In this document: piece after piece, positions 1 through 29,142 of the stretch
Position numbering within the stretch: the first letter of the stretch is position 1
Layout of the letters: the number at the start of each line of letters is the position of its first letter
Source: a virus
Direction: 5' to 3' (one strand)
Length of the DNA stretch: 30,685 nucleotides
Virus record (IMG/VR): IMGVR_UViG_3300025941_000076
Location: 1 to 30,685 of that record
Translations under genes and position numbers: made by a program
The notes under the pieces: model-generated
What the model saw: the letters and a program-made list of their open reading frames with translations, nothing else
What the model was told of the DNA's origin: nothing
Databases searched by the model: none

Positions 1-1
1 A

Positions 2-2283: not shown

Positions 2284-2292
2284 CTTCGACCT

Positions 2293-4996: not shown

Positions 4997-6657
4997 TAGG
5001 TATACGGCTCCGCTCTACCGTTCTTGATAATGTACCTATTACCTTGTTCATCAGTACCAGTCTTACCCTCATGCTCGGGTCCGAATTTAGTTATGGGTTG
5101 AGCTGTTGGCTGCGCCGTGGGCGTGCCCCCACCTTGAGCCGAAGCTACAACCTTCTGCCCCTCCGTTGTAAGACTACCATCCTTGTTTACGAAGAGTGGA
5201 TGCTCATCAGCATACTTGTCGATAACCTCATTCACTCCCCAGGAAGTAGCCCGCAGCGGATTATTCTTCATAAAGCTTCTGGCTTCTTTAGAGACTCCTC
5301 GATCGTACTCAGCCATCTGGCGGAGGTTACCTATGATAGCCTTGATGCCACCTGGAGTTTGCAGGATCTGCGGGAATATCTTCTCGACGAACGCCCTATC
5401 AGCGTCGGAGAAGGACTTACTGAAGCTCCCGACATGGGCCATAAGAGCCTGATTGGAAAGAGAGGTAAACTCTTGATTGATCGCAGCCGAGCGTTCCGCG
5501 GATGTAGCAAGTTGCCCTAGCCTGTTCTTGAATGCAGTCGGATCAACTCCAACTATTTTCATCAAAGATAGTACTTGATTGACCCCTTCAGCATATTTAT
5601 TAGCTGATGTACCTGCTATGAAGTCCTTGTCCTGAGTAAGAGTACTCATTCGATCGAGCGTGGCAATGAGCTGCTGTGACTGGCCAGCTTTCTTTTCGGT
5701 GTCGAGGTAGATCTTTTCTGCGGACTTGATCTTGTCCGGGGCCTGTTGCAGCTCTAGCTTGTAATCACCAAAGCTGACATCGGGCTGACCCGCTTGTCGT
5801 CGAGCGATCCGTTCTTCCTGCCAGGCCTGTTGATCAGGGGTCAGTTTGAGCTTGCCCATAGCATCCCGGAAGCGCTCCATAAGAGCCCGTCCCGGGCCGC
5901 TAGTCATTAACTGTCGTGGCATCCCAGACAGGGCCTGTCCCACCGCAGCGGCCTCAGCCTGGGCATCGGCCTGATATGCAGGCACCTTTAGCGGGCCGCT
6001 CTCTGGTGCCGTGGCAGGAGCCGCTTGAGGTGGTGGTGCTCCGACGGCCGGGGCGGCTGCAGCATTGAGTGTTTCCGCACTCATTACCGGGGTCTGTCCA
6101 GGCAGTGTATTAGGCGTGGGTGGAGGCCCCGCCAGCTGCTGTGGCTGAGGCTGTGCCGTACCCTGCTGTGCGGCAGCTATGATGGCATCACTTGGGCTGG
6201 GCTCGGCCGCAGCCTGTTGTGGCCCCGCCTGAGGGGGAAGGGCACTTCGTGGTCCTACTCCTGGAATAGCCCCGGGCGCGCCCTGAAATGGATCTGGCGC
6301 AGGCGGGGCCTGAGCTGGCCCTGGAGTCAGTGGTATGTTGGGTGCTTGCTCCGCTGGAGCGGCTTGCCCGCCAGGCATCCCAGGCCAGCGAAAGTTCTTG
6401 AGGTAATCGGCCTGTATCCTATCCGACTCGCCCTTCTGCGTCAGTTGTCGACGCGCGAGCGCGGCTGCCTGGAGCTTCAACCCGGCCTCCATATGACCCG
6501 CGGCGAGCAACTGCGATGCCTTCCGCTCCAGCGAGTCTGGATCAGTGCTCTTGAGATCCGCAAGCGTTTCCCTCAGTACAGCCCTATCTTGGGCCGCTCC
6601 TGCTATCGCAGGAAGCTGTCCAAGCAGACTGAAGTCCACGTTAAAGTTGTCGGCCAT
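4996..6657 (-). CDS. Putative internal virion (DNA ejection) protein, Gln/Pro/Ala-rich
   Basis: This 553-residue protein has a helical N-terminus (LADLKSTDPDSLERKASQLLAAG), then a long disordered Pro/Gln/Ala tract from about residue 95 to 230, and then a helical C-terminal half. The ATG at 6657 is preferred over the TTG two codons upstream because AGGGA lies six bases before it. The AGGGA overlaps the stop of the upstream gene. The composition and position among three consecutive low-complexity proteins behind the tail hub resemble podovirus ejection proteins. I see no catalytic motif. The function is inferred from context. Confidence 0.65.
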   Translation of the reverse strand: MADNFNVDFSLLGQLPAIAGAAQDRAVLRETLADLKSTDPDSLERKASQLLAAGHMEAGLKLQAAALARRQLTQKGESDRIQADYLKNFRWPGMPGGQAAPAEQAPNIPLTPGPAQAPPAPDPFQGAPGAIPGVGPRSALPPQAGPQQAAAEPSPSDAIIAAAQQGTAQPQPQQLAGPPPTPNTLPGQTPVMSAETLNAAAAPAVGAPPPQAAPATAPESGPLKVPAYQADAQAEAAAVGQALSGMPRQLMTSGPGRALMERFRDAMGKLKLTPDQQAWQEERIARRQAGQPDVSFGDYKLELQQAPDKIKSAEKIYLDTEKKAGQSQQLIATLDRMSTLTQDKDFIAGTSANKYAEGVNQVLSLMKIVGVDPTAFKNRLGQLATSAERSAAINQEFTSLSNQALMAHVGSFSKSFSDADRAFVEKIFPQILQTPGGIKAIIGNLRQMAEYDRGVSKEARSFMKNNPLRATSWGVNEVIDKYADEHPLFVNKDGSLTTEGQKVVASAQGGGTPTAQPTAQPITKFGPEHEGKTGTDEQGNRYIIKNGRAEPYT

Positions 6658-6666
6658 AGTCAATCC

Positions 6667-7761
6667 CTACGCTGCGAGTCCAAGGCCCTTTAGGAAGCTA
6701 CTGCCAGCCGGTGTCCCTGCCCCCGCCCCGGCCAAATTGAGGCCCAGGTTCCACAGGTTCTTCGAGCCCGCCATCTCCGCGTTCGCGGCAGTCTGGAAGG
6801 TCGGCGAGTACTGGCCAGCGATGTTCTGGAAGCCCTGAGAGGACTGTCCAGACAGCGTGGACAGCAGGTTGGCAATGCTGTTGCCTGTCCCAGTATACAC
6901 CCCACTCTGATCCTCGCCGCCGCGCTGAGCCAGATTGGCCAGGCTGGTCCCGGTTCCGAGCAGGGTATTGGCCACGTTAGTACCTGTGCCCGACAACAGA
7001 TCGGACAGCTTGCCGCCGGTACCAGTGTAAATGTTGGCCGCGCCAGTGCCTCCCGTAAGGGCGGCGTTAGCTGTGCCCGAGGCCGCAGTCGAGGCCGCGT
7101 TCGCGCCAAGTGGGGCGTAGGCACCCTGTTGGGCCTGACCAAGACCAGAGACGCCCGCTCGCCACGCACCGTAGTCCTGATTGGCAAGGCCCTGTCCGTA
7201 GGTCTGCGCTTCGCGGAGCTGGTTTCCGCCTGCGGCCATGCCAGAGGCATTCGCATTGCGAAGAACGGACTCGAGCCCTTGGTTCAGCTGAAACTGATAG
7301 CCGGGACTAGACTGGAACGCGGCCTGAACCTGTCCCGCCATAGGCCCAAGGCCAAAGGCCCCCTGCGCAATGTCACCGCCCTGGAGAGCCCGTGCATCAT
7401 AGCCTTGCCCTTGTCCAGCGAGTCCGCTGAAGGCATCTGTTGCCCCCTGAACACCGCTTCGGAGTGACTCAAGACCACCAGTCTGTCCAGCCAAAAGGGC
7501 ATTGGTTCCGCCAGTCTGCCCTCCGTAGAGGGCCGCGATTGCCTGGGGCGAGTAGTTCTGGATATCTCCGCGCGCCGTGGCTTGACCACCCTGAAGGGCG
7601 TTGATGGCACTGCCCTGTCCGCTTTGGAGGGCATCTATGCCGCGGGTCTGCGCGGCGCCGATGCCGGACTGGATCTGGTTGGAGATCCCCGTAAGATACT
7701 GCTGCTGTTGCTCTGCAGCTTTCTTAACGGGATCGCCAGTAAAGATATCGAACAGGCCCAT
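6667..7761 (-). CDS. Putative DNA injection protein, Gly/Ala/Gln repeat-rich
   Basis: The 364-residue protein opens with MGLFDIFTGDPVKKAAEQQQQ, a pattern common at the start of small podovirus injection proteins. A region of imperfect short repeats follows (GxxALQGGQ, GGTNALLAGQ), then repeated YTGTGxxxxxLLSGTG units at about residues 238-305. The C-terminus is Ala/Gly/Leu-rich and could contact membrane. It has a strong AGGAGG site five bases before the ATG, so it is probably well expressed. It is the first of three adjacent ejection-type genes. No enzymatic motif is visible. Confidence 0.7.
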   Translation of the reverse strand: MGLFDIFTGDPVKKAAEQQQQYLTGISNQIQSGIGAAQTRGIDALQSGQGSAINALQGGQATARGDIQNYSPQAIAALYGGQTGGTNALLAGQTGGLESLRSGVQGATDAFSGLAGQGQGYDARALQGGDIAQGAFGLGPMAGQVQAAFQSSPGYQFQLNQGLESVLRNANASGMAAGGNQLREAQTYGQGLANQDYGAWRAGVSGLGQAQQGAYAPLGANAASTAASGTANAALTGGTGAANIYTGTGGKLSDLLSGTGTNVANTLLGTGTSLANLAQRGGEDQSGVYTGTGNSIANLLSTLSGQSSQGFQNIAGQYSPTFQTAANAEMAGSKNLWNLGLNLAGAGAGTPAGSSFLKGLGLAA

Positions 7762-7770
7762 TATAGCCTC

Positions 7771-8535
7771 CTATGCCTTTTTCAGGCCGTACATCGCTAT
7801 GCGCCCACCGACTATCGTGCCAGAGGCAAAGAAGAACCTCACAGCATTGCATGGAGTAGCATCGCTGACTTCATGGCCAGAGCCAATCACTTGATAGGTG
7901 CCACTACCAGCATCGTAGTAATCAGACGAACGCCAACTAGCCATATTTAGATTTTGGCCACTGTTTGGATAGACTGTTGTCTCAGAACTATTACCCCATG
8001 TAGAGTTTGTAACTCCACCGATCCTGAAGTATGTAGTATTGCCTTCTGAGGCCGAGCTGTATGCTAGTGGAGTTGCACCACCGCCAATATAAGAATAGAG
8101 CCAGGTCCATATATTGGAGGTATTCTTCCACGTCGCGCCGCCATCCAGACTCATCTGCATATACAGTGGTTGATTGTTAACAGAAGGCCTCAGTCCTGTG
8201 GCATGGAACTGATAGGCTGCGTAGGTGCTGTTCATCCCTGTAAATACAAGTGTTGGAGAGTTATTTGCCGTTTGAACCGAGAGGAATATCAGTCCCGGAG
8301 AAACGCCCGGGGGCGGATTTTGTAGCGCGGTAATAGCCGCTTGTTGTGCCGTGTTATTCGCTTGTTGTGCCGTGTTAATTGCCTGCTGTGTTGCAAGAGC
8401 TGTTTGCAGCGTCACGACATTCGCTTGAAGCTGCGTCGTGGTCGTGAATAGATCTTGAAGCCATGAATACCATTCAGGGTCCCAGTGACTCTGTTCGTCA
8501 GTAACTCTTGAAAACGGATCGAGTGGGGCCTTCAT
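7771..8535 (-). CDS. Putative short tail fiber/needle-like structural protein with coiled coil
   Basis: This 254-residue protein has a short N-terminal region (WDPEWYSWLQDLFTTTTQLQ) that could dock to the virion. A Gln/Ala/Thr heptad-like coiled coil follows (about residues 33-72, with repeated TAQQANNTAQQAA). After a Pro-rich hinge (NPPPGVSPG) comes a beta-rich C-terminal domain. That plan of anchor, trimeric stalk and globular tip is typical of short fibers or needles. The ATG overlaps the stop of the gp10-like hub gene as ATGA. A role as a fiber or plug bound to the hub is inference. Confidence 0.65.
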   Translation of the reverse strand: MKAPLDPFSRVTDEQSHWDPEWYSWLQDLFTTTTQLQANVVTLQTALATQQAINTAQQANNTAQQAAITALQNPPPGVSPGLIFLSVQTANNSPTLVFTGMNSTYAAYQFHATGLRPSVNNQPLYMQMSLDGGATWKNTSNIWTWLYSYIGGGATPLAYSSASEGNTTYFRIGGVTNSTWGNSSETTVYPNSGQNLNMASWRSSDYYDAGSGTYQVIGSGHEVSDATPCNAVRFFFASGTIVGGRIAMYGLKKA

Positions 8536-9950
8536 CCAGAGTACCCCCGCGCTTCAAGATCATCTATCGAACCCCCCGACAGTCCCACATGAACCGGATC
8601 GGAGACCCGCAGACGGAACCGAACGCCCTGGCCCTTGGACAGCCCGCACTGCAGAACATATGGGTGCGAGAGCGACTCCCCGGGACCTCCAAGGCGACGC
8701 ATCACAGGGTCTCCATAGGTGTATCCCCCGTCGAGGGACCAAGAGATCTCCACCCTGGGATCTGTTACAGTGGAGGTCGTCCCTACAGCAGTCGTCAACA
8801 GGAAGCTGCTTCGAGGCACCATGACGCCGCGCGGAAAGCCTGACATCACCCCGCTTTCTACCTGCCAAATAAGGGGATCAGTTCCTTCGAGGAAGTATGA
8901 TCCACTGACCTGATACAGATCTCCGGTAAACTCGTCTCCAATGATCCATCGATCGAATATCCGTATACTCTTCATACCCTTCCAGTTAGACTGGTTAAAC
9001 GACTTGCGTTCGTTCCACTCGCCCGTGACTAGATTATACTCCCACGTCCAATTATCGTGAGAGGACAAGACCCAGAAGGCATTCTTACCGTACATATAGA
9101 CAAAGGCCTCGATGAGGTTACGGCCCCCGGCGAGTACCGCTGATTGAATGGCCCTACTAACATCATCGGTAGAGACTGGTGTAGGCGTGTATCCATCCAA
9201 CTTATAAACGATGAAGTCATCTCCGGCCCAGAGCAACTGGTTGGCCCATCCAGTCTCCCAACCAGCGACAGCATGAGTCCCAACGATACCCCGAGGGATA
9301 GTGACCTCGCGCGCGAACGGAAATGGACTTGTTCCTGCATCACGATAGACCCCCGTCCACTTATCTCCGAAGGCATAAAGTCGCCCTGCATACCGCAGCA
9401 CCCGCCTGACGAACAGGCCCTGCTCAGTATTCAGCGACAACGCCTGTACATTAGTAGAATTAAGATCGGAAGCATAGATCTGACCTCCACCAAATGACCA
9501 GACAAAGTATCCATCGATGTCACAAACACTCGTTGGCCCGGCGGGTAGGTTGACCGAGACAAAGGGTGTTGCCCCGGTACTGGTGTCAACATTAAAACAG
9601 CCGTTCTCAGTAACAACTACATTCTGTTTAACAACAGCATTATTCCGTCCAAAGGTAACTGGTTCAGTCCCTACCAATGTACCCAGATCTGTTACCGTAA
9701 AGACACTATCAAACCTCATGAGTTTATTATTAAGCACCCATACTGCAGCTGCTTCCGCGTCGAGAAAGCCCCTGGTGTGACCACTTATCGCAGTCGTCGC
9801 TATTCGTTGGAGACCAGGAGAACGCCTCACGATAATCTGCGACGGTGCTCCATAGGGTGTCTTCTCCACGTAGGCATTAATCAGCCTTCCACCAGACTCT
9901 TGTGGCCTGGTAGCCGGGGCTGACGTAGTTGGAAATACAATAGACGGCAT
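8532..9950 (-). CDS. Packaged DNA stabilization / tail hub protein (P22 gp10-like)
   Basis: The 472-residue protein is close in length to P22 gp10. It begins with the family hallmark RLINAYVEKTPYG...IVRRSPGLQ (about 22-47). It continues as repeated beta-blades with WVLNNKLMRFD, YFVWSFGGGQIYASD, YAGRLYAFGDKWTGVYRDAG and WVLSSHDNWTWEYN, as expected for a beta-propeller. In P22 this protein closes the portal channel after packaging and carries fibers. It starts TGATG-coupled to the gp4-like adaptor, and this adaptor-then-hub order mirrors P22-like tails. The assignment is strong at family level. Confidence 0.85.
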   Translation of the reverse strand: MPSIVFPTTSAPATRPQESGGRLINAYVEKTPYGAPSQIIVRRSPGLQRIATTAISGHTRGFLDAEAAAVWVLNNKLMRFDSVFTVTDLGTLVGTEPVTFGRNNAVVKQNVVVTENGCFNVDTSTGATPFVSVNLPAGPTSVCDIDGYFVWSFGGGQIYASDLNSTNVQALSLNTEQGLFVRRVLRYAGRLYAFGDKWTGVYRDAGTSPFPFAREVTIPRGIVGTHAVAGWETGWANQLLWAGDDFIVYKLDGYTPTPVSTDDVSRAIQSAVLAGGRNLIEAFVYMYGKNAFWVLSSHDNWTWEYNLVTGEWNERKSFNQSNWKGMKSIRIFDRWIIGDEFTGDLYQVSGSYFLEGTDPLIWQVESGVMSGFPRGVMVPRSSFLLTTAVGTTSTVTDPRVEISWSLDGGYTYGDPVMRRLGGPGESLSHPYVLQCGLSKGQGVRFRLRVSDPVHVGLSGGSIDDLEARGYSG

Positions 9951-10294
9951 CAGAAGTACTCAGCTTCCTGGGTCCCATAAGTGGGACCACTCGAGGTCAA
10001 CCGCCGCAGACGACTCTCGTAGTACTCCTTGATCTGCGGATCAAAGTTCTTCCCAGCTACCGGGGCACAGACATTAGCTAATAGTCCCGCGAGCGAGTCG
10101 AACCATTCAGCCGGGATATATCCATCATTGACTACCTCACAGATATTATCAGAGGCGAGCTGCATTATCAAGGGATCTACATTACTGTCAATCTTGTTCG
10201 AGTACTCCGCTTCGAGCCCCTGACCAGTCCCAACAATGTTGAGCTTGTCCGCAGCCTCACGAATAAGCTCAAAGCGGGTCTTTGTGGTTTTCAT
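9950..10294 (-). CDS. Head-tail adaptor, gp4-like tail accessory factor
   Basis: The protein is 114 residues, mostly helical, and shorter than P22 gp4 (about 166). It contains the adaptor-like pattern of an N-terminal helix with a GTGQ turn (LNIVGTGQGLEAE), a middle VDPLIMQLAS helix, and DGYIPAEWFDSLAGLLANVCAPVAG, resembling the gp4 family. It would bind the portal ring and extend the channel. P22 gp4 also has muramidase activity, but I see no catalytic motif here. It lies directly before the gp10-like hub (TGATG) and after a fiber-like gene (ATGA overlap). Confidence 0.65.
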   Translation of the reverse strand: MKTTKTRFELIREAADKLNIVGTGQGLEAEYSNKIDSNVDPLIMQLASDNICEVVNDGYIPAEWFDSLAGLLANVCAPVAGKNFDPQIKEYYESRLRRLTSSGPTYGTQEAEYF

Positions 10295-10908
10295 ATCGGC
10301 AGAACCTCTATGGTAATGTTCAGCCTGGTAATCGGCCCACCAGTCGAGGAAGACATACGCAGGATCTCTCCCGCAGCAATGTTAAGGTTCCACCCAGTCA
10401 AGGTTGTACTCTGGTACTTTCCATTGGAAAGTACTGGAGGATTTCCCCCTGTGATATCTACCAGTCCAGCAGGAAATGTGGCGAATGTGCCCTTTTGAAT
10501 AGCTATATTAGGATTTCCACTGGTTGCGTCACTGATAACAGTCACTTTTGTAATAGTGCAAGAGTATGGAACGACAGTATCCTGTGCGCTTGGAGTCGCC
10601 CCAATAAGCAGGATAGCAGGAATACCCCTGATCCTATGATTAACCGTTAGCTGAAGGCTCCCGCTGCCGGTGAACCCTAGACCACCGGCGACCCCAATAA
10701 CCTCTACGGAGCCAACACCAGGGGTGTCCCGTCCGAGTAGTCGATCCTCTGGGATCGAAGCCAGCGCGTTGATAGGGATATTGGCATAGGCCTGCGCTGC
10801 AAAAGTGTAGGTGCCACCACTCTTAGTGATGGTTATCCCGGTTCCCGCCAGGACTTGAGCGGGGAACCGGGGCAGGATGCGGGCGCGGAGACTCGGTTGT
10901 GTGCCCAC
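10291..10908 (-). CDS. Virion structural protein with phage beta-sandwich domain
   Basis: The 205-residue protein starts at a GTG preceded by GGGAGGG five bases upstream. The N-terminal third has the fiber-type pattern LAGTGITITKSGGTYTF followed by LLGRDTPGVGSVEVI. The C-terminal 110 residues match a widespread phage beta-sandwich with strands around TITKVTVISDATSGNPNIAIQKG, VLSNGKYQSTTLTGW and AAGEILRMSSSTGGPITR. Such domains occur in tail fibers and capsid spikes. It is encoded between the capsid genes and the adaptor, so either head fiber or tail appendage is possible. Confidence 0.65.
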   Translation of the reverse strand: MGTQPSLRARILPRFPAQVLAGTGITITKSGGTYTFAAQAYANIPINALASIPEDRLLGRDTPGVGSVEVIGVAGGLGFTGSGSLQLTVNHRIRGIPAILLIGATPSAQDTVVPYSCTITKVTVISDATSGNPNIAIQKGTFATFPAGLVDITGGNPPVLSNGKYQSTTLTGWNLNIAAGEILRMSSSTGGPITRLNITIEVLPI

Positions 10909-10950
10909 GAAAGCCCTCCCATTATCTAACTGGAGCCATATCTTTCCGCG

Positions 10951-11163
10951 CTATTTTTTCGCTTTGGACTTATCGTCCTCTTTAGGCTGGGCTGTATTTT
11001 CCTCTGGGACCGGGATTGGCTGACCCGGAGGAGGTGCCATAGGGTTCGGTGGCGGAGCCACTGGCTCACCCGGCTTCGGCACCGGCCCTTGGGCCGACTG
11101 TTGCGAGGGCGGCACGTGAACGTCAGGTGACTTCATGTTGTCTTCGTCTTTATGTTGGGCCAT
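10951..11163 (-). CDS. Small Pro/Lys-rich hypothetical protein
   Basis: The 70-residue product is low in complexity: a charged N-terminus (MAQHKDEDNMKS), a Pro/Gln/Gly middle and a Lys/Glu/Asp tail (KEDDKSKAKK). It is probably disordered. GGAG lies six bases before the ATG. It starts 19 bases after a strong hairpin that may end most capsid-gene transcripts. I do not recognise a family. Similar proline-rich miniproteins accompany capsid genes in some phages. Confidence 0.55.
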   Translation of the reverse strand: MAQHKDEDNMKSPDVHVPPSQQSAQGPVPKPGEPVAPPPNPMAPPPGQPIPVPEENTAQPKEDDKSKAKK

Positions 11164-11181
11164 TTCACTCTCCGTAAAAGC

Positions 11182-11202
11182 GGGAGGGGACTATCCCCTC
11201 CC
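11182..11202 (-). terminator. Hairpin terminator/attenuator behind the capsid genes
   Basis: A perfect 8-bp stem GGGAGGGG/CCCCTCCC with a five-base loop is followed on the minus strand by GCTTTTAC. The short T-run suggests partial termination. It would boost capsid and decoration mRNA relative to the downstream tail genes. Confidence 0.65.
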
Positions 11203-11218
11203 AGTTGGACGAGGTCAG

Positions 11219-11608
11219 TTACGCAAGCGGCTTGACGAACTGGATCATGATGTAGGCATCACCAGTAGCAGTCCCAGTGATGTTAGCATAGACATCGGTA
11301 TCAGCCACGAGCGGCATCACCAACGCCGCAAGTGGTACTGTGTTGAGACTGCCTGCTGTCAGTGCGATAGTGGCAGCAATTTCAGAGCCCGTAGGTGTCG
11401 TACCAATACCAAACACTGGAGTAGAGCCAGTGATAGCCGTCTCCACGTTGGTAGAGGCAGCAAGGATGATAGCCCCGGCCGGGAGTGTACCAACCTTGAT
11501 GCTGTAGACAGAGACACCACCAGTCGGCGCGGCTCGGGCAGCGATATACTGCACGAACTCATATCCGGCTTCGCGGGCGGCTCCCCTGTTGTTGAGTGTC
11601 GTTACCAT
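11219..11608 (-). CDS. Putative capsid decoration/head protein
   Basis: The 129-residue protein is beta-rich with many Ala, Thr and Gly (GTLPAGAIILAASTNVETAITGSTPVFGIGTTPTGSEIAATIALT) and ends in MIQFVKPLA. I choose the ATG at 11608: GAGGAGG sits nine bases upstream, and that site would lie inside the coding sequence if the TTG at 11626 were used. It lies directly behind the major capsid gene and before a terminator-like hairpin, a common position for decoration or head-stabilising proteins. That role is inferred from position and composition, not from a recognised family. Confidence 0.65.
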   Translation of the reverse strand: MVTTLNNRGAAREAGYEFVQYIAARAAPTGGVSVYSIKVGTLPAGAIILAASTNVETAITGSTPVFGIGTTPTGSEIAATIALTAGSLNTVPLAALVMPLVADTDVYANITGTATGDAYIMIQFVKPLA

Positions 11609-11622
11609 GTGTAGGGTCCTCC

Positions 11623-12807
11623 TCAATCAGACGAACAAGCGAAGAACCCATTCACCACTCCCCACTGCTTAAGAGTGGTCGCGGTGTATGGATGTCGCTT
11701 GAACATCTTGGAGATGCCGTAGGCCATCTCGATGCCGACGCCAGTGATGAAGCCGTAGTCGTCTTCCTTACGGAACGTGGGCTTGGCCATCTGGCCCCAC
11801 GCGAAGACTGCAGCCTGTTGGCCGAGCAGGAATACTGGCTCGACCCGCGTAGTGCCACCCTGACCCCCAAGCAGGAGGTTGCCGGTGCCTGCTGGACCCC
11901 AAGGACCAGGGTTGGCAGTCGTGCCCACGAAGCGGCTGATCTCAGGGACACACCTGACAATCACTCCGTCGTAGATCTGATCGCCATCTTGGAAGATAGG
12001 GTTCTTAGTCGCGCCGTACGGCCCTGACTGTTCGCGGGGCCTTGCGTCCTTATTGATGGTCTCCAGAGAGATCTTCAGGTCACGGAACGCATTAGTTCCC
12101 GCGCACGCGATGTAGTACTCATACCCATCATCAGTCCGATAGGGACGAATGTGGGGATCAGCATTCATCGCGAGCCGCTTCATCAGTGACAGGTTCGTGG
12201 CAGTGAACTTGTCATTGGTCGTGTCGCACTGACCAAGAGACGTAGCGAAGTCAGTCGCGTTGTTGGACACTGCGTTACCAAACAGGATACGATCCGAATT
12301 GGCAGCGCGCCACGCATCCTTCTGAGCCGTCGAAGCTTGATCGAACTGGATACCATTGACCCTCGTGCCGCCCGAAGACGGCGGAAGGGTCTCGGTCGGC
12401 AGGGCCATCAGCGCGGCAATGATCTCGTCCCGCTGAAGTTCCTTACCCCAATCGCTCAAGAGCGGCTTTGCCACTCCGAATACGTCGGCCGAGTCCTTAT
12501 GAGACTCTGCCTTCGTAGTCACCACGGCGTTACGAGCCCATTCGATCCTGACTCGCATACCGTAGTTGTCGATCTTCTCTTCGTTTCCGACCAGCGTCTG
12601 TGTCGCCACGCCAGCTCCCTGAAGACGCGAGACGATCGGGATGTTCATATCCTCGCCGCCCGCCTTCAGCTCACTGCGGATACGAATAACCGCGTTCAGG
12701 CCCTCACTCATGTAGGGCGAGAACTGATTACCTCTAACAAACTCTCGGTTGATTTCCTCTGTATACCGGACGAGTTTGTTATTGTCCTGAATGACTGTCA
12801 CAGCCAT
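11623..12807 (-). CDS. Major capsid protein, N4-gp56/DUF4043-like
   Basis: The 394-residue protein resembles the N4-gp56 (DUF4043) capsid family in length and motifs. The N-terminal segment has VRGNQFSPYMSEGLNAVIRI; residues about 71-102 hold TLVGNEEKIDNYGMRVRIEWARNAVVTT; and residues 227-245 hold DGYEYYIACAGTNAFRDLK, the most diagnostic part. The C-terminal region includes VEPVFLLGQQAAVFAWG. It forms the icosahedral shell by HK97-type folding around the scaffold encoded just upstream. AAAGGG lies eight bases before the ATG. A 31-bp dyad element sits about 25 bases before the gene and may control expression. Confidence 0.88.
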   Translation of the reverse strand: MAVTVIQDNNKLVRYTEEINREFVRGNQFSPYMSEGLNAVIRIRSELKAGGEDMNIPIVSRLQGAGVATQTLVGNEEKIDNYGMRVRIEWARNAVVTTKAESHKDSADVFGVAKPLLSDWGKELQRDEIIAALMALPTETLPPSSGGTRVNGIQFDQASTAQKDAWRAANSDRILFGNAVSNNATDFATSLGQCDTTNDKFTATNLSLMKRLAMNADPHIRPYRTDDGYEYYIACAGTNAFRDLKISLETINKDARPREQSGPYGATKNPIFQDGDQIYDGVIVRCVPEISRFVGTTANPGPWGPAGTGNLLLGGQGGTTRVEPVFLLGQQAAVFAWGQMAKPTFRKEDDYGFITGVGIEMAYGISKMFKRHPYTATTLKQWGVVNGFFACSSD

Positions 12808-12831
12808 GGCTGCAACCCTTTCCTGACTCGA

Positions 12832-12862
12832 GCCATATCAAAACATTTTGTTCCGGTATGGC
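12832..12862. promoter_or_regulatory. 31-bp dyad element, copy A (upstream of major capsid gene)
   Basis: The arms are GCCATATC (12832-12839) and GGTATGGC (12855-12862), extended by GA/TC on each side, with AAAACATTTTGTTCC between. Its length is identical to copy B. It lies 25 bases from the capsid ATG, in the 63-base gap after the scaffold gene, so it may be a capsid promoter/operator or a structured leader. Confidence 0.6.
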
Positions 12863-12870
12863 TCATACGC

Positions 12871-13668
12871 TCATCTCTCCTTGCCATTACTCATGGCATA
12901 TCGAAACAAGCTATCGTGGCTCATATCGCCCATCTTCTCCGTGTTTCCGGCGGAGGCGGTGGTCTTTGAGAGCGACGGGGGAAGTCGTGTCTCAGACGGT
13001 CGACTGGCAGCGCTTCCACGAACCTTATCTAGCATACTGGCCTGGAAGGTGGGATCAGCCATCTTCTCAGCCAGCTTCTTCTCAAACCAAGCGTTAGGAT
13101 CGTCACCAACGGCAGCAAGGGTAGCTTGCTTCCTGTGCCACTGCACGACCGCGTCGTAGCGGTTCGGTGACTGCACCACACGCTCGTAGTCGGCCACGTC
13201 GAGGGTTTGCTGAGCCCTGGCATCCAAGAACGCCTGTTCAGCTTCCGCGACCTTATCCTGCCCGTGCCGGGTCTCAGCGATCAGCTTGCTGTTGTACATC
13301 GTAGTAGCGTTTTGCTGTTCAACAACAGGCCGTAGATACCGCTGGATGATTTCTTCCGTGGCCTTGTCAGGGTTCTCGAAGAAGTCCGGCTTCTTCTCCT
13401 GCTGGCGCAGGTGAGTTGCGATCTCGTTCAGGCGCGACTCTAGCGCCCTCGCTCGATCTTCAGCCGCTCTTCGACCTTCAGCCTCCTCCCTCAACCGCCA
13501 AGTCGGAACGCCCGGCTCGGGAGGTTCCACAGCGGCCGGAGGTGGAGGCTCCGGTGCCGGGGGCGGGGCAGGTTCCGGCTCTGCCGGGGGCTCCGCTGGG
13601 GGAGTCACTTGCGCTAGATCGAACATCTCTTGCTGGAGCTGTTCGGGGCTCTTATCATCGTCTGCCAT
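12871..13668 (-). CDS. Scaffolding protein
   Basis: The 265-residue acidic protein has a disordered Pro/Glu/Ala N-terminus (about residues 20-52) followed by long charged helices (RLREEAEGRRAAEDRARALESRLNEIATHLRQQEKK). The composition and its position directly before the major capsid gene fit a capsid assembly scaffold. The C-terminus is Ser/Lys/Arg-rich (SHDSLFRYAMSNGKER) and could be the coat-binding tip, as in P22 scaffold. It would guide procapsid assembly and then leave. No protease motif is seen. The family call rests on context and composition. Confidence 0.78.
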   Translation of the reverse strand: MADDDKSPEQLQQEMFDLAQVTPPAEPPAEPEPAPPPAPEPPPPAAVEPPEPGVPTWRLREEAEGRRAAEDRARALESRLNEIATHLRQQEKKPDFFENPDKATEEIIQRYLRPVVEQQNATTMYNSKLIAETRHGQDKVAEAEQAFLDARAQQTLDVADYERVVQSPNRYDAVVQWHRKQATLAAVGDDPNAWFEKKLAEKMADPTFQASMLDKVRGSAASRPSETRLPPSLSKTTASAGNTEKMGDMSHDSLFRYAMSNGKER

Positions 13669-13710
13669 CTTCCATCCTTCCGCTGTTTCGTAGCGTTTAC
13701 GTATCCGGGG

Positions 13711-13863
13711 CTATCGTCCCCGGCGGCGAGGCACCGTTTCGTGGTGCAGACGCAATTCCATCAAAGTGTCTCGGAGCGCATAGCGCATCCCGCGATGCAG
13801 CTTCCTGCGACGCATTCTCCGCATCAGGTGCCGGATGAACCGGCTGAAGTCACTGTCCGACAT
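13711..13863 (-). CDS. Short Arg-rich basic protein (tentative)
   Basis: A 50-residue product from the ATG at 13863 (GGAAA five bases upstream) is dense in Arg, His and Leu (FIRHLMRRMRRRKLHRGMRY). A GTG start at 13915-13917 would give 68 residues but has no ribosome site. It could bind nucleic acid. Reasons for caution are its small size, odd composition and lack of a recognised family. It fills an otherwise empty gap in a tightly packed operon, which supports it being real. Confidence 0.42.
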   Translation of the reverse strand: MSDSDFSRFIRHLMRRMRRRKLHRGMRYALRDTLMELRLHHETVPRRRGR

Positions 13864-13942
13864 TTGCGTTTCCACAGACCATATGCGACTATCACTCGAC
13901 AGAGTAACCGTCGCCACCAGTTGTCATCGGGTGTAAAGGGTC

Positions 13943-14137
13943 TCATCGCCTCCGATAATCCCCCACTTTCAAGTGATCAATTCCTCCACGGCGGACAGGG
14001 CCCGCAACCGCGGGCTTTGCCTTGCCAGCTGTATTCAGCGCAATGGCAACCGCCTGTTTCTGTGGCTTTCCCGCGCTTATCTCGGTACGTATGTTCTGCG
14101 AGATAATTTTGGGATCTTTCCCTTTGATCAGTGGCAT
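13943..14137 (-). CDS. Small phage protein of the MPLIKGK type
   Basis: The 64-residue protein starts MPLIKGKDPKIISQNIRTE and continues AGKPQKQAVAIALNTAG. This is a widely recurring small protein type in tailed phages and prophages, often found among portal and capsid genes. Its function is not established. AGGG lies eight bases before the ATG. The tail is basic (GPVRRGGIDHLKVGDYRRR). I recognise the sequence type but not a role. Confidence 0.72.
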   Translation of the reverse strand: MPLIKGKDPKIISQNIRTEISAGKPQKQAVAIALNTAGKAKPAVAGPVRRGGIDHLKVGDYRRR

Positions 14138-14431: not shown

Positions 14432-15004
14432 TTATCCTCCTAGTATCCCGTTCTCGAAGAAGTCCTTATACGTGAACCCTGGCTTTGCCGGGGGCGGGAC
14501 CATCTGGGACTGAAGCCCTGCGAGCGTCTGGGGCTGTGCCGACGTATAGGGCACACTCCCAGCTGCTCCCGGGCCCGGTGCTCCGATCCGCGTCCACCAG
14601 CCCTTGTCAGGTCCCTCGATCCCGAAGCGCTCCCCTCCGGCAGCGTAGGTCTGCGGGCCACCCGCGAAGCCCACTGTACCCGAGGCGTTGCCTGTAGCAT
14701 AGTTGGTTATGTTCGAGCCTCCAAGGACGCTCTGTACCACTGGATCATACGCCGCGCGAGTGTTCTGATCTACCCCGCGCGCGGCACGCTGATGAGTCAC
14801 CCCCGGGAAGTACTCCCCAGACAACACATCGGCCAGCGACTTTCGCCGAGCCACAGCCCGATTGAGTGTGGTCTCGATGAAGGCCTGCCACGCTTGTGGC
14901 CCTTGCCCACCGACCTCGGCCTTGGTATAGGCCAAGAGCTTATCCCGCACACGGGGGTCCTGAAGCTCTTCCGCGAAGCGTCTCCGGCCAAGATCATCTG
15001 CCAC
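14432..15004 (-). CDS. Putative wall-hydrolase-like virion protein
   Basis: The 190-residue protein has a helical N-terminal domain with the pattern LLAYTKAEVGGQGPQAWQAFIETTLNRAVARRKSL and then VLSGEYFPG. This resembles cell-wall hydrolase (SleB-like) or lytic-transglycosylase-type domains that carry a Glu before 'NRA' repeats. The second half is Gly/Pro-rich (about residues 95-190) and probably flexible. I place the start at GTG 15004 because GGAGG lies five bases upstream; a GTG at 15010 overlaps that site. It overlaps the portal gene by 11 bases. A virion-borne enzyme that opens the wall at entry fits the position but is unproven. Confidence 0.55.
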   Translation of the reverse strand: MADDLGRRRFAEELQDPRVRDKLLAYTKAEVGGQGPQAWQAFIETTLNRAVARRKSLADVLSGEYFPGVTHQRAARGVDQNTRAAYDPVVQSVLGGSNITNYATGNASGTVGFAGGPQTYAAGGERFGIEGPDKGWWTRIGAPGPGAAGSVPYTSAQPQTLAGLQSQMVPPPAKPGFTYKDFFENGILGG

Positions 15005-17060
15005 CGGCACCTCCCGCTGGCTTGGGCTTCTGGGCGGCTTGCTTCAGCATCATCTGGTGCTTCTGCTCGCCCTGGACCAGGGCCTGATGGCCCTTCAGTT
15101 CATTGTGCCTTAGATCTTGTTGGCCCTTCATGGCGTTCAGCTGGATGTCTTGCTGTTGCATGGCCTGATTGGACTGAAGCTTGCTGAACTCGGTCGAGGC
15201 CTTGATCTGCGCGAGTTTCTGCGCGGATTGGACCTTCATGACGCTTTCCTGCATCTTCATTCCGTGCTCTTGCTGCTTCATAACCATTTCTTGCTGTTTT
15301 TCGCGAGGATCGTTACTCGCAGCGGCCTCCTGGGCCTTGGCTATGTTAAGGGCGGTCTTGGACTTCGTTTCATCAACTTTCGCAGCTTCGCCAGCAATGG
15401 TAATCGCCTTAGCCTGCTCAGCCACAGGATCTTTCTGCTCCAGAAGAGCCAGAAGCTTCCGCTTGAGCTGACCCTGTAGCGGAGCAAGCTCAAGTAGGAT
15501 CTGTGGAGGTATATTAGCCCCTTGAGCGGTGAGGGCGACCAGCGTATCATAGGCATCTCCCATCATGTTGACCTCATCTGGGCCCTCATCCAGGGAGAAG
15601 TTGACATCTAGCGTCCCAATCGAGTTCACGAGCCGCGGAAGCCCGTATTCATCCACCCCTACACCGTTGACCTGCACCAGTTGGGCCAGTCCCGCGTCGT
15701 CTGTGACCCGGATATAGCGCTCTGCGGTCCAATATCGCTGCACAGCGTTCCAAATAGCCCGATAAAGTCGTAGTTTCCAGTTCTTAATGCCTATAACGAA
15801 CGGCCCCAGCTCGGCGATACCTGCTTGTTGGAGCAGGTTGATCGCGCGTCCGGACTTGTACTCGAGGCCCTGACCTATTAGGGCCGGGCTGGGGCCGAAG
15901 TTCTCGATCTCATTCTTCGCGTCCTCTAGGAACTTGATTTGGCCTTCGATGTTAGTGATGCGCGCTGCATCATCGAACTCCATCTCGAAGCCCTTGTTGT
16001 AGATAACCACACCGTCCGGTCGAATGGCCTCCCGTCGAGTAACCTCAATATCAGCAAATGCTCCATCTTCCGCCTTGATCCTACGCGAAACCAGCTCATG
16101 TAGGCCCTTCGAGCGGCGCTGGTTGATCTCATCCTGGGATGAACGTAGATTACGGACGAAGCCATAGCGATCACCGTCATGATCCACGAAGCTGGAGAAC
16201 ATGATATACTTGCATATCATATCTCCCTTCTCATTGTAGAAGTAGCCCTTGCCCTCATCGATCTTCATCGAGCCCGTGAACAGGCACCACTTCCACCCCT
16301 TGCCGCTCTTATACCAGATATCCACTACCCGCAGGCGCTTATGCCGAGAGTCCACGTCAAACCAGCGCCTCTCCCGTTCCGGGTTCGAGGTCAGGTCCGC
16401 GCCGTCACCCTCCATCAGGGTCTTCATCTGATTGGCGGTCTCCTCGTCGGGCGCGAGCAGCATCGCATCTTCAATGTCGAGCCACTTGCCCTGGCCCATG
16501 AAGCGCGCGTCGGCGAAGTCGTGGTCATAAGAGCGCACATCGTAGAAAAAACTATCCGTTTTGACCAGAGCAAACCCGATATCCTTATCGTCCTTGTCCC
16601 CTTTGATGAGCATCATCTCGACGCCGCCAATACCGTCTACTGCGGCATTTTCCGTCGCGAAGGGGAAGAGCGCCTCCCGGAGGTCACTCTCCACCACATA
16701 ACGCACAACAGCTGTTGCCAGCTCGGCACCCATCTCATCCTGATCTCGCGGGGTCTTTGGGAAGGCCTTGGGGTCCTGCTTGATCTTCTCCATTAGCCCA
16801 ATGATCGAGTCAATCTTCCGCCCGATCCTGTTATACGTCACAACTGGTTGTTTGCGGCGGTTGAAGACCTCCACCTGATCCGCGGTCCACTGAGCCCCGT
16901 GCCGGTACCCTCGAGCGTTCTTCTGCTCCAGGATCTCATCGTGCTTAGATGCAACGTAGTCCAGATAGGACTGCTTGCAACGACGCAGCTCCCAATAACC
17001 CTCGTCGTCAATGTCACTATCATTGACCACATAGTCATCTTTATATGCTGCGTTGGCCAT
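14994..17060 (-). CDS. Portal protein, P22-like
   Basis: The 688-residue protein is close in size to P22 gp1 (about 725). Recognisable family segments are RGYRHGAQWTADQVEVFNRRKQPVVTYNRIG (about 50-80), the wing and stem region with RYGFVRNLRSSQDEINQRRSKGLHELVSRR, and EGQIKFLEDAKNEIENFGPSPALIGQ in the middle. The last 120 residues are a Gln/Met/Lys-rich helix set (KQQEHGMKMQESVMKVQSAQK...), probably the barrel above the ring. Twelve copies form the channel for DNA packaging and ejection. The ATG overlaps the upstream stop as TGATG. Confidence 0.88.
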   Translation of the reverse strand: MANAAYKDDYVVNDSDIDDEGYWELRRCKQSYLDYVASKHDEILEQKNARGYRHGAQWTADQVEVFNRRKQPVVTYNRIGRKIDSIIGLMEKIKQDPKAFPKTPRDQDEMGAELATAVVRYVVESDLREALFPFATENAAVDGIGGVEMMLIKGDKDDKDIGFALVKTDSFFYDVRSYDHDFADARFMGQGKWLDIEDAMLLAPDEETANQMKTLMEGDGADLTSNPERERRWFDVDSRHKRLRVVDIWYKSGKGWKWCLFTGSMKIDEGKGYFYNEKGDMICKYIMFSSFVDHDGDRYGFVRNLRSSQDEINQRRSKGLHELVSRRIKAEDGAFADIEVTRREAIRPDGVVIYNKGFEMEFDDAARITNIEGQIKFLEDAKNEIENFGPSPALIGQGLEYKSGRAINLLQQAGIAELGPFVIGIKNWKLRLYRAIWNAVQRYWTAERYIRVTDDAGLAQLVQVNGVGVDEYGLPRLVNSIGTLDVNFSLDEGPDEVNMMGDAYDTLVALTAQGANIPPQILLELAPLQGQLKRKLLALLEQKDPVAEQAKAITIAGEAAKVDETKSKTALNIAKAQEAAASNDPREKQQEMVMKQQEHGMKMQESVMKVQSAQKLAQIKASTEFSKLQSNQAMQQQDIQLNAMKGQQDLRHNELKGHQALVQGEQKHQMMLKQAAQKPKPAGGAGGR

Positions 17061-19081
17061 CAGTGTCGTCCTATGATGACTCGGCCCTGACGCGGCCTTC
17101 TGATCGAGTAGTCAGACTGTATTCCGTGTCCAATAGGATAAGTATAGCGCGGGTCGTGCGGGAAGAACGGATCGAACAGCGTATCCGCGTCGTTCATCTT
17201 CGAGGCGCTTATGAACTGATCATATACCAGCTGGGGCGCGAACAGTCGATCAGTGTCGATAATCTTGTCAGGGAATAGATCATTTCGCTGAACGACTATC
17301 GCCGAGAAGAAAGTGTCTGAGTCAGCAAAGAAGACTGGATTAACCTTCGACCCGACACTCGGTAAGAAGAAGTGATCTCCATCCGCAGTTTCATCAAAGT
17401 CTGCGTCGATGAACGTCGCAGGGCGTATGTTGGCAATACCAGCTACTACCGCAGGCGCAAAGAACGCATCTGCGTCAGTGAACAATACAGGTACTATAAA
17501 CGACTCAATAGATATAGCTGGGTTAAATATTGTATCCGAGTCAGTAAACTTCACAGGATTAATAAACAGTACCGTTACTGGAGCAAAGAGCAGATCCGCG
17601 TCGCTGAATAGAACAGGAGCTACGTTAACCCCACCAACAGCCAATGCGGGCGCAAAGAAGTTATCCGCATCATTAATCCTGCCAGCCATCGTGGGCTGTG
17701 CACCGCCACCAGTGACCAGCGCCATCCGCGGCGAGTCTGGATCAACGAACAGTACGGGCGTGATATTGACCGCTCCAACGGTCAGCGCGGGTGAGAAGAA
17801 CGTATCATTATCAGCGAACAGGTTCGGAGTGACTGGCTGCCCCGCAGCCGGGCCCCGGATAACCACAGTGACCGACATCGGCGGGGGCACATAGCGGTAA
17901 TTCCGCACCTGAGTCGAACTATCGGCCTCGTTGTAGATCCGCTTCAGGACCCCACCAATGACAGTGGGGGGATGGTGAGTATCGCTCTCTACATAGACCC
18001 CGGGATGGACCATAAACTGGCCCCCGCCAAAACCTGGGGTGAATATAGTGTCTATATCCATAAACTTGTTTGGCCTGATATCACCTGCAATGGGTCGAGC
18101 GATAACAACCGTCACTGACATAGGCGGTATAAACCGCCTGATATCCATCCACGCCGAGGCCGCTGCATAAGCAGTAATTGGCTCAATATCCTCATCAAAG
18201 TTAATAAGTCCTGGAGTAAAGAACGTATCTTGATCGCTAATTTGTCCGGGCAACAGGCTTATCGTACCCCCGGCTAAGGTCGGGGCCCGGAAACTGTCAC
18301 TATCTCCAAAGAAGAAAATACCAAGATTATATACGACCGAGACACTAGAAAATGCGTCAGTATCGACCAATAACGTTGGAGTCAGCTGTTTGGTCGCGGC
18401 GAGCCCTGGAACGTATAAAACGTCACTATCGATAAAGAACGATGGAGCTGTCTGCTTAAGCGTCGCGAGTACGGGAGCAAAGAATACGTCATTATCAGTG
18501 ATCCGAGCAGGACCAACACTCACGCCCCCAACAAAGCTCGGAGCAAAGAGGGTATCACTATCAACTAACAGGTTCGGGCGCGGCCCGATAAGTGGACTAA
18601 AGAACGCGTCTGCATCTACGAATAACGTAGTTGTAAAGCCCCCGCCTACAATCGGCACAAAGATTGTATCACTGTCAACAAACCGTACTGGCAGCGACGT
18701 TGATGTAGTCTTCGGAGCAAAGAATACATCAGCATCATTAAATGAGTTCTGACCCAGAATGACACTACTGGTCGAGAGCGTAGGAGCAGAGAACGTATCG
18801 TTATCTACTAGTTTCTGTGGCGTTACTATTCCAGCGTTTGGAATAGTAAAGGTCATTATAACTTCAGAATGCGGTATCCGCCTTCGTCGATAGAAATGAC
18901 TCGCCGCGGCGTACGGAGGCTGGACGACACGGGTCGTCGTAGGAGCAAATCCTACGTCCGAGTCCGCTATCCGCGCGGGCGCGATGTTCTGGGTACTCGG
19001 AGGCGCCGCCTGTTGACGCGGGGCACCAATCACCTCCGCGACAGGCTGGTAACGATACTTATAAAGCGGCCCTTCAGTCAT
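17060..19081 (-). CDS. DxDxxFxP repeat protein (putative virion fiber/adhesin)
   Basis: The 673-residue protein has about 23 copies of a loose 19-25-residue unit with core D-[SNATD]-D-x-x-F-x-P, a Gly-rich link and a Pro before the next 'xDxD'. The N-terminal 85 residues are different (YKYRYQPVAEVIG, then PHSEVIMTFTIPNAG). A block with RPIAGDIRPNK and PPPMSVTVVI, seen twice, interrupts the array near residues 320-420. The evenly spaced DxD pairs could bind Ca2+ and stiffen a beta-solenoid. The ATG at 19081 is preferred to a TTG at 19093. It lies between the GH9-like protein and the portal, so a virion surface fiber is likely; no enzyme motif is visible. Confidence 0.72.
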   Translation of the reverse strand: MTEGPLYKYRYQPVAEVIGAPRQQAAPPSTQNIAPARIADSDVGFAPTTTRVVQPPYAAASHFYRRRRIPHSEVIMTFTIPNAGIVTPQKLVDNDTFSAPTLSTSSVILGQNSFNDADVFFAPKTTSTSLPVRFVDSDTIFVPIVGGGFTTTLFVDADAFFSPLIGPRPNLLVDSDTLFAPSFVGGVSVGPARITDNDVFFAPVLATLKQTAPSFFIDSDVLYVPGLAATKQLTPTLLVDTDAFSSVSVVYNLGIFFFGDSDSFRAPTLAGGTISLLPGQISDQDTFFTPGLINFDEDIEPITAYAAASAWMDIRRFIPPMSVTVVIARPIAGDIRPNKFMDIDTIFTPGFGGGQFMVHPGVYVESDTHHPPTVIGGVLKRIYNEADSSTQVRNYRYVPPPMSVTVVIRGPAAGQPVTPNLFADNDTFFSPALTVGAVNITPVLFVDPDSPRMALVTGGGAQPTMAGRINDADNFFAPALAVGGVNVAPVLFSDADLLFAPVTVLFINPVKFTDSDTIFNPAISIESFIVPVLFTDADAFFAPAVVAGIANIRPATFIDADFDETADGDHFFLPSVGSKVNPVFFADSDTFFSAIVVQRNDLFPDKIIDTDRLFAPQLVYDQFISASKMNDADTLFDPFFPHDPRYTYPIGHGIQSDYSIRRPRQGRVIIGRH

Positions 19082-19082
19082 A

Positions 19083-27985: not shown

Positions 27986-28167
27986 GAGGGGCTCACCGTC
28001 CAGCCCCCGCACCAATCAGTGGGCTGACACGCTGGCCACATAGTCGCGGGATAGGCCAGTGCTGTGAGTTGCGCGAGCACGAGGTAGGGCGGGCCCTTGC
28101 GGCAAAGGCCGCCCATGTAAAAGGCGCACGTCGAGCAGGATTGGCCCTGGGGCGGTCTCACGGGCAT
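27982..28167 (-). CDS. Cys-rich miniprotein between terminase subunits
   Basis: The 61-residue protein has CSTC (11-14), a Cys at 22 in GGLCRKGPPYL, and a final Cys pair in WPACQPTDWCGGW (47 and 53). This spacing matches a small protein type found near terminase genes in several phages (pattern CxxC...CRxxPP...WPxC...DWCG). It may bind zinc or an iron-sulfur cluster; function unknown. It starts TAATG-coupled to the small subunit and ends ATGA-coupled to the large subunit. That coupling makes it a genuine gene despite its small size. Confidence 0.78.
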   Translation of the reverse strand: MPVRPPQGQSCSTCAFYMGGLCRKGPPYLVLAQLTALAYPATMWPACQPTDWCGGWTVSPS

Positions 28168-28793
28168 TAGTTCAGCTCCTTTGGATCGTGGACGACCTCA
28201 CTTGCCTCCTGGGACCCCGCCCCGAGTTCCTTGGCTCGCCGCTCTTTCCACTGGTCGAAGTTTTCCCGGGGCGGCCGATCAATGAAGTCCCGATCCATTT
28301 TCAGGGTGACCTCCTGGCCCGGGCCGTGCCCTGTGCGGTCTGCAAAGGTCTTTACCACATCAATGAGCAGGGGAATGCTGAATGTCTCTGGGTTGTCGTG
28401 CAACCGCTCTTGCAACAGCTCGATCGCGTCGAGGGACATATTGTTCATCCGCTCGGCGAGGTCGGCGAAGATGCTCTTTGCCTCTGCTCGATAGTCTTCT
28501 ACTAGCGCGCTGAAAGCGGGGTCATTGAGTAGGGTCGAGATGCGGCTCTGATTATAGCCAGTAACCAGGGCGGCCTGGGACTGTTTCATGCCCGTGGCGA
28601 GGCACTTCGCGAGGGAGTGGTGGCTGGCGTGGATGCGGACGAGGGACTTGGGCTTCGTGCCGCGGTTAGTGGCCAGGGCCGCGATGTCGGCCTCGGTTAG
28701 GTCGCGGGCGTGCTCGATGAACAGCTGGCGGGGCACGTTCCCCATGAGGCGGGGGCCCGTCGAGGTATCTAGATCGTCGATGAAGTCATCCAT
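28167..28793 (-). CDS. terS: Terminase small subunit-like DNA-binding protein
   Basis: The 208-residue protein has a helix-turn-helix pattern with MKQSQAALVTGYNQSRISTLLNDPAFSALVEDYRAE (about 77-112), like the DNA-recognition domain of small terminases. A helical oligomerisation region follows (FADLAERMNNMSLDAIELLQERL), and a charged tail (QWKERRAKELGAGSQEASE) could contact the large subunit. The ATG at 28793 is favoured by AGGA eight bases upstream and gives a normal size; a longer frame upstream has no ribosome site. It is the first gene of the late block, so the promoter and dyad region before it should control packaging and structural genes. Confidence 0.78.
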   Translation of the reverse strand: MDDFIDDLDTSTGPRLMGNVPRQLFIEHARDLTEADIAALATNRGTKPKSLVRIHASHHSLAKCLATGMKQSQAALVTGYNQSRISTLLNDPAFSALVEDYRAEAKSIFADLAERMNNMSLDAIELLQERLHDNPETFSIPLLIDVVKTFADRTGHGPGQEVTLKMDRDFIDRPPRENFDQWKERRAKELGAGSQEASEVVHDPKELN

Positions 28794-28858
28794 ATGGCTG
28801 GTCCTGTAATCGACGCAGTCCGGCCCCGCGCGAGTAGGGTGCTCCCCTCTCGGGGCGT

Positions 28859-28864
28859 TGTCAA
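28859..28864 (-). promoter_or_regulatory. Possible -35 box of a leftward late promoter
   Basis: On the minus strand TTGACA lies about 66 bases before the terminase small-subunit ATG. A 17-base spacer containing a CCCC-GAGA-GGGG dyad follows, and then only a weak -10 (CACCCT). The poor -10 suggests an activated promoter or a chance match. It is the only TTGACA in the leader of the late block. Confidence 0.35.
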
Positions 28865-28960
28865 GTAGATTGTGGTATGGCTGTTTCGGAACCAGCCGTC
28901 GGACCATACATATGGCTCTTTGCCGCGTCGGCTCCCCGACATAAGGGGCGGAGGCCCCGA

Positions 28961-28991
28961 GCCGTATCGAAACATTTTATTCTGATATGGC
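28961..28991. promoter_or_regulatory. 31-bp dyad element, copy B (upstream of terminase genes)
   Basis: The arms are GCCGTATC (28961-28968) and GATATGGC (28984-28991), flanking GAAACATTTTATTCT. Twenty-six of its 31 bases match copy A before the capsid gene, and all five differences are transitions. It lies about 168 bases before the late gene block. It may be a regulator binding site, a promoter element or an RNA processing hairpin. Confidence 0.6.
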
Positions 28992-29142
28992 GGGGTCACT
29001 CGATATGGCCATTCCCCCTCGGTATTCTGGCGGGGCTGAAGCGCCCAGCAATAAAAGTTCTTTTTTTAGCCCCCCGGCCTCTTTATGTTTCAATATTCGA
29101 GCCTGGTGCGCAACAAACAGCATGCATATATGCATACGTAAC

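Follow-up and report, generated by a model that had tools for sequence, protein, structure and literature searches.

A palindrome in phage capsid leaders is a probable DNA operator of a ParB-methyltransferase fusion protein

We propose that a 35-bp dyad in the capsid leader of an uncultivated phage is a double-stranded DNA operator, or parS-like site, for the phage's own fusion of a ParB_N domain with an N6/N4 methyltransferase (ParB-MTase), and that it likely serves transcription control; we put the probability of this reading at about 0.8. Phage fusions of a ParB-CTPase with a DNA methyltransferase are already known and frequent, and a survey from 2025 leaves their role open (PMC12704722). 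Our literature search of open-licence papers found no report of binding sites for these fusions.

The dyad occurs twice in the window

The window, by which we mean the whole stretch of 30,685 nucleotides analyzed here, is an IMG/VR phage fragment with its late genes on the minus strand. A first reading made from the sequence only had pointed to two 31-bp copies of a dyad (12832-12862 and 28961-28991), and we recovered both, with 26 of 31 bases identical and five differences, all of them transitions. Its estimate that the dyad lies about 25 bases before the capsid ATG (12805-12807) was also accurate, the distance being 24 bases. The full capsid-leader site (12830..12864, minus strand), which reads GAGCCATACCGGAACA-AAA-TGTTTTGATATGGCTC in gene sense, fills the gap between the stop codon of a probable scaffold gene (12871..13668, minus strand; assigned from position and relatives, without a family match) and the ribosome-binding site of the major capsid protein gene (phrog_334; 11623..12807, minus strand). 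Its core (12840..12854, minus strand), with the half-sites GGAACA and TGTTTT around an AAA centre, is the putative target of a helix-turn-helix (HTH), as judged by the helix co-variation described below. On either side follow outer arms with the motif RTAY, as ATAC at 12856..12859 (minus strand; 9-12 bp from the dyad) and as ATAT at 12835..12838 (plus strand).

The second site, CCGCCATATCAGAATA-AAA-TGTTTCGATACGGCTC (28959..28993, minus strand; core 28969..28983, minus strand), was found both as a repeat and in a scan with the 35-bp capsid dyad. It is located some 170 bp upstream of the probable start (28793) of an ORF that we regard as the probable small terminase (28167..28907, minus strand; start at 28793 or 28907) on the grounds of position, relatives and an HTH-like stretch. 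The large terminase (26522-28015, minus strand) follows downstream of this ORF, and the portal gene is located at 14994-17060 (minus strand). A relative (G001) carries a counterpart of the second site at the equivalent position, 32842.

The two sites were listed as one pair (D13; 34 nt, 85%) among the repeats of the window, and a scan of the window with the 35-mer scored 28/35 at 28959, whereas no shuffled query exceeded 22/35. By our own estimate, the chance of finding any pair of 31-mers with at least 26 matches in the window is about 0.01. The pair alone is therefore suggestive, and it is the relatives that make the case decisive.

Some further sequences in the window resemble parts of the site. 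A stretch at 28873-28912, GTATGGCTGTTTCGGAACCAGCCGTCGGACCATAC, near the small terminase start retains the outer arms without a core and is perhaps a decayed or everted copy. A lone half-site, GGCATATCGAAACA (12894-12908), lies within the 3'-terminal part of the scaffold gene and some 30 bp away from the capsid site, and a lone outer arm, GATATGGCTC (10933-10942), in the short leader of the gene at 10291-10908. Separately, the gene at 17060-19093 (minus strand) encodes a 677-aa protein with many copies of a short DSDTFFAP-like repeat, and the DNA repeat families D1-D5 fall mostly inside it.

Relatives keep the position of the site and exchange its core

In 78 of 80 IMG/VR capsid loci, we inspected the 110 bases that precede the capsid ATG. 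The closest relatives (98-100%) carry the dyad of the window, and relatives at 65-81% capsid identity have a palindrome of the same build in the same place, with a core sequence that differs in each lineage. In a sister group (65-70%), an intrinsic terminator (CCCGCC-loop-GGCGGGTTTTTT) occupies exactly the position of the dyad; these scaffold-capsid terminators were seen in the capsid leaders L059-L061 and L068-L084. Three leaders (L051, L055 and L056) have neither palindrome nor terminator.

Additional copies were sought by whole-genome hairpin scans and by scans with each genome's own capsid palindrome. The sequence-only reading had expected a functional element to recur in relatives, and numerous further copies were found. 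Each genome has 1-3 more copies of its own core, scoring above shuffled queries, and the cores agree within a genome and differ between genomes (2-4 sites per genome). The extra copies scored 31/34 in G007, 29/35 and 28/35 in G008 and 27/35 in G015, with shuffled maxima of 21-22, while those of G009, G005 and G011 each score lower over the full length, their support coming from the core. The core TGCCGG-AAA-CCGGCA appears four times in G009, and AACCGC-AAA-GCGGTT twice in G006 together with a weaker third copy; the fragments G014 and G016 have the capsid copy only. A de novo search for recurrent palindromes recovered the sites in roughly half the genomes and is weaker than the own-core scan, since it also returned chance pairs.

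The extra copies are mainly intergenic, with gene calls based on a simple longest-ORF choice. Their number and position vary among genomes, the commonest place being the early replication operon, directly or one to two small genes upstream of the ParB-MTase gene.

Other features were noted in these records. Three closely spaced palindromes of the GGGGTAATTTTTACCC type are present at positions 17128-17255 of the G015 record (L128), and in G011 a tRNA-like sequence, recognized by eye, ends immediately 5' of the operon site (L111, ~12565-12640). The G008 record carries identical 33-mers near both ends of its 45.9 kb (positions 96 and 45911; L103 and L105), which suggests terminal redundancy, i.e., a complete genome.

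The fusion protein is encoded next to one of its putative sites

ParB-MTase combines a ParB_N domain (PF02195) with an N6_N4_Mtase domain (PF01555). Its ParB half matches structures of Noc, Spo0J and ParB in profile searches through the HTH (E 5e-17), and all 31 sequences compared share the CTP-binding motifs (G56, R59 and E91-N92-xx-R95) without variation. The methylase, predicted from the sequence, has DFPYG as its motif IV. The record of the window stops short of the gene. Contig L116, which overlaps the window and is 99.97% identical to positions 1-13957, carries it at L116:1286-2575 (plus strand), 3.5 kb to the left of window base 1; a third site, GAGCCATCCCAGAATAAAATGTTACGGTATGGTTC, lies in the leader region (L116:673-707).

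ParB-MTase loci were found by a protein scan, and their upstream regions were compared with the capsid cores. Every locus with 1 kb of upstream sequence in the clade of at least 65% identity has a palindrome whose core resembles a capsid-leader core. The match mostly extends over 17-22 of 23 positions and is weaker (15/23) for one variant of the W lineage (L138, L145 and L150) and for L176. In many lineages, one or two small genes separate this operon site from the ParB-MTase gene, whose start is then 200-680 bp downstream.

The distribution of the gene agrees with that of the palindrome. ParB-MTase is present in 11 of 13 palindrome-bearing records, the exceptions (G005 and G014) being fragments, and absent from 9 of the 10 records whose capsid leader has a terminator or lacks a palindrome. 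The exception, G038 (L051), holds part of a ParB-MTase gene and a capsid leader without a palindrome. Because many records are fragments, these absences count as weak evidence.

Beyond this clade, G025 carries three sites with a core of its own and G031 two. Relatives of the protein in cultured phages reach at most 42% identity over any stretch, and full-length ones at most 30%. Of these more distant phages that encode ParB-MTase, the two that we examined, Microcystis phage Mel-JY34 and Vibrio phage VS-ABTNL-3, showed no such sites; intrinsic terminators were observed directly 5' of their ParB-MTase genes (L250 ~11500-11535 and L251 ~9960-10000, respectively). The scan of bacterial genomes gave only four matches, all in MAG contigs. 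Sequences like bacterial parS were seen twice, namely TGTTTCACGTGAAACA in G017 (L131:1095-1122) and GTTTCACGTGAAAC in G009, immediately adjoining the ParB-MTase leader site (L106:10656-10671).

The recognition helix co-varies with the core

To relate protein and site, ParB-MTase sequences were aligned with site cores from 19 lineages, and 341 windows of eight residues were ranked by a partial Mantel test corrected for overall protein distance. The HTH recognition helix (residues 133-140 of L144) and its overlapping neighbors came out on top of all windows (r = 0.48, p = 5e-5). At the level of single residues, position 2 of the helix goes with base 5 of the half-site (R with G in 14/14 arms, P with T in 10/10 and Q with A in 4/4), position 3 with base 4 (P with T in 8/8, Q with A in 16/20) and position 7 with base 2 (R with C in 14/14, E with G in 6/6). 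For one site (L173), we chose the better pairing of the arms manually.

Common descent does not account for this fit, since base 5 changes 8 times on a tree of the methylase half, compared with 8.7 times for shuffled labels, and since helix residue and base change together in the sister pairs L165/L166, L168/L169, L144/L156 and L167/L173. Two proteins from outside the training set also conform in part: in G031 (48% identical; helix TQPEASAR, core GATAAA) the pairings of Q with A at position 2 and P with T at position 3 hold, and the G011 helix SNAHVTRM fits at position 7.

The assignments can be compared with solved contacts, in which R173 of Caulobacter ParB reads a G in parS and Q158 of Noc reads an A in NBS (PMC7383237). 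Helix position 2 aligns by sequence with these two residues via the S-R/Q-x-H motif, and base 5 lies 6 bp from the dyad here and 6.5 bp in parS, by our own reckoning from the palindrome. The predicted pairings of R with G and Q with A at the 173-equivalent residue thus match the known ParB-parS and Noc-NBS contacts. Taken from the co-variation, binding of a ParB-MTase dimer to the dyad core is strongly supported. Another regulator may bind the dyad instead, although the co-variation is specific to the ParB-MTase helix; for the same reason, the small terminase with its HTH-like stretch is a weaker choice of binder.

The build of the site and the alternatives

Across 38 sites, the palindrome consists of two zones. 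The core pairs at ±3 to ±5 are complementary in 37-38 of the 38 sites. Positions ±2, ±6 and ±7 are also highly complementary; the value falls to 42% at ±8 and recovers from ±9 to ±15. Different lineages have the outer arms in common, and 80 of 86 arms contain RTAY, with its T at ±11 in 36 hits, at ±15 in 48 and elsewhere in four only, which places the motif at ±9-12 or ±13-16 bp from the dyad. RTAY is perhaps contacted or methylated by the fused methylase. Over whole genomes it is neither enriched nor avoided (O/E 0.90-0.93), and the top words among the enriched 8-mers of each genome do not include the outer arms.

The main rival to transcription control is delivery of methylation to phage DNA. 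The ParB clamp would then load at the sites and spread from them together with its methylase, modifying the phage genome in cis as an anti-restriction measure. The domain fusion and the conserved CTPase motifs fit this model, as do the dispersal of 2-4 sites over genomes of ~45 kb, the fixed registers of RTAY adjoining the core and the anti-defence role that has been proposed for such fusions (PMC12704722). Against it stands the fact that positions in the capsid leader and the ParB operon leader are kept despite complete turnover of the core, which loading alone would not need, and RTAY occurs in these genomes at close to its expected frequency. We consider this model rather unlikely.

Much less probable is an intrinsic terminator or attenuator between the scaffold and capsid genes. 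Such a function is what the sister clade has at exactly this position, and before the ParB-MTase gene itself, relatives at 55% identity or less have terminator-like hairpins or other small palindromes, the hairpins in several of them directly before the gene. Neither hairpin of the window is followed by a U-tract, however.

An RNA hairpin in the capsid mRNA leader, acting in translation control, RNase processing or mRNA stabilization, is equally hard to sustain, and we give it slightly less credence still. The location between scaffold stop and capsid ribosome-binding site would suit it, and the capsid site folds strongly, but it does so comparably on both strands (-18.5 and -17.5 kcal/mol; z -5.9 and -5.7). 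The sequence-only reading had stated that the arms stay pairable on plus-strand RNA through G-U wobble. The capsid gene being on the minus strand, the relevant transcript is the minus-strand one, and the wobble is uninformative, with one G.U and two A.C pairs in the capsid copy on the plus strand and two G.U and one A.C on the minus strand. In the orientation of the gene downstream, G.U pairs number 27 and A.C pairs 38 over the 38 sites, of which 20 have AAA as their centre triplet, 10 have TTT and the others a mixed one. Because A.C is as common as G.U and AAA and TTT interchange, we favor a double-stranded DNA site; moreover, the genome-specific stem is common to distant sites and linked to the HTH helix, which speaks against an RNA element.

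A phage-specific promoter, of the N4 hairpin type or for a single-subunit RNA polymerase, had also been suggested and is very improbable. Two copies before late genes and a hairpin with a 3-nt loop would agree with it. The site, though, is a 6+3+6 palindrome with symmetric arms whose core differs in every lineage and tracks the ParB helix, sites occur in the early leader too, no phage RNA polymerase was present among the proteins examined, and no sigma-70-like promoter was found beside either site of the window. Least credible of all is a centromere (parS) of a phage partition system, as the ParB_N domain and parS-like geometry are set against a ParB that is fused to a methylase, sites that lie in gene leaders, and a ParA-type ATPase (PF01656) found in none of 22 records (several possibly incomplete) and in 14 of 14 controls.

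What stands from the options first raised is thus the operator, a double-stranded palindrome whose core co-varies with an HTH helix. Its attribution to a late regulator is uncertain, because the candidate protein is encoded in the early replication operon and has one site in its own leader region.

Discussion

Under the operator reading, a dimer of the ParB-type HTH would read the 15-bp core, in which six bases flank the A/T-rich centre triplet on either side, with the fused methylase domains placed over the outer arms that carry RTAY. Bound at the leader of its own early operon, at the capsid leader and upstream of the small terminase, ParB-MTase would control transcription, regulating itself at the first of these sites and restraining the capsid and packaging genes as a roadblock or repressor. 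It may also spread from the sites as a CTP-dependent clamp. We infer the regulatory effect at the sites from sequence comparison; the clamp and the role of RTAY as a methylation target are likewise inferred. Transcription control is favored because the gene positions are kept despite complete core turnover, because one site lies in the leader of the protein's own operon and because a terminator replaces the site in the sister group. This parallel suggests a shared role in limiting read-through, with a protein roadblock taking the place of the terminator.

A tentative extension is a bipartite methylation switch, in which the HTH docks on the lineage-specific core and the methylase on the RTAY arms, and methylation of the arms or release of the clamp times the capsid and replication operons. 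If such a switch exists, a private protein-site pair in each lineage would stop co-infecting relatives from cross-regulating one another.

These uncultivated phages supply putative cognate sites, a readable helix-base code and conserved gene positions (capsid leader, own operon and terminase region) for a widespread and uncharacterized phage protein. Each lineage's matched version of protein and site is a testable target, and the about 19 natural pairs lend themselves to the study of how ParB specificity diversifies. The findings also suggest that modification of phage DNA may be tied to when genes are expressed.

The closest parallel in recognition is offered by Caulobacter ParB with parS and Bacillus Noc with NBS (PMC7383237), which share with the phage system the ParB_N domain, an equally placed HTH, a palindromic site and, judging from the co-variation, the same residue facing the same type of base (R with G, Q with A) at a similar distance from the dyad. 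The phage site differs in its 3-bp centre and conserved RTAY outer arms, and the phage protein in ending in a methylase rather than a ParB dimerization domain, in lacking a ParA partner and in a specificity that varies per lineage. KorB of plasmid RK2 and its OB operators (PMC11790492) likewise combine a ParB-family regulator with palindromic operators and a CTP clamp, which is proposed here. ParB-MTase, with sites in the leader region of its own operon and in the capsid leader, may act as a clamp-repressor in the manner of KorB. KorB silences promoters with KorA and without a methylase, whereas no promoter was recognized beside the phage sites.

The fusions surveyed in phages (PMC12704722) have the same domain combination as ParB-MTase; that survey names no binding site or tested function, whereas our analysis proposes cognate sites together with a helix-base code. 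A precedent for a methylase that regulates its own operon is M.SsoII (PMC6100179), which together with M.Ecl18kI (PMC3695355) exemplifies a DNA methyltransferase that binds a regulatory site and controls transcription of its own system, although M.SsoII is a cytosine-5 enzyme that belongs to a restriction-modification system and has, in place of ParB, a small regulatory region at its N-terminus. Finally, the stoperators of Cluster A mycobacteriophages (PMC9283540) are also sites dispersed over a genome and bound by a phage protein, with a stop of elongation shown there and proposed here; they are asymmetric, numerous in each genome and bound by a monomeric immunity repressor, whereas the phage dyads described here are palindromic.
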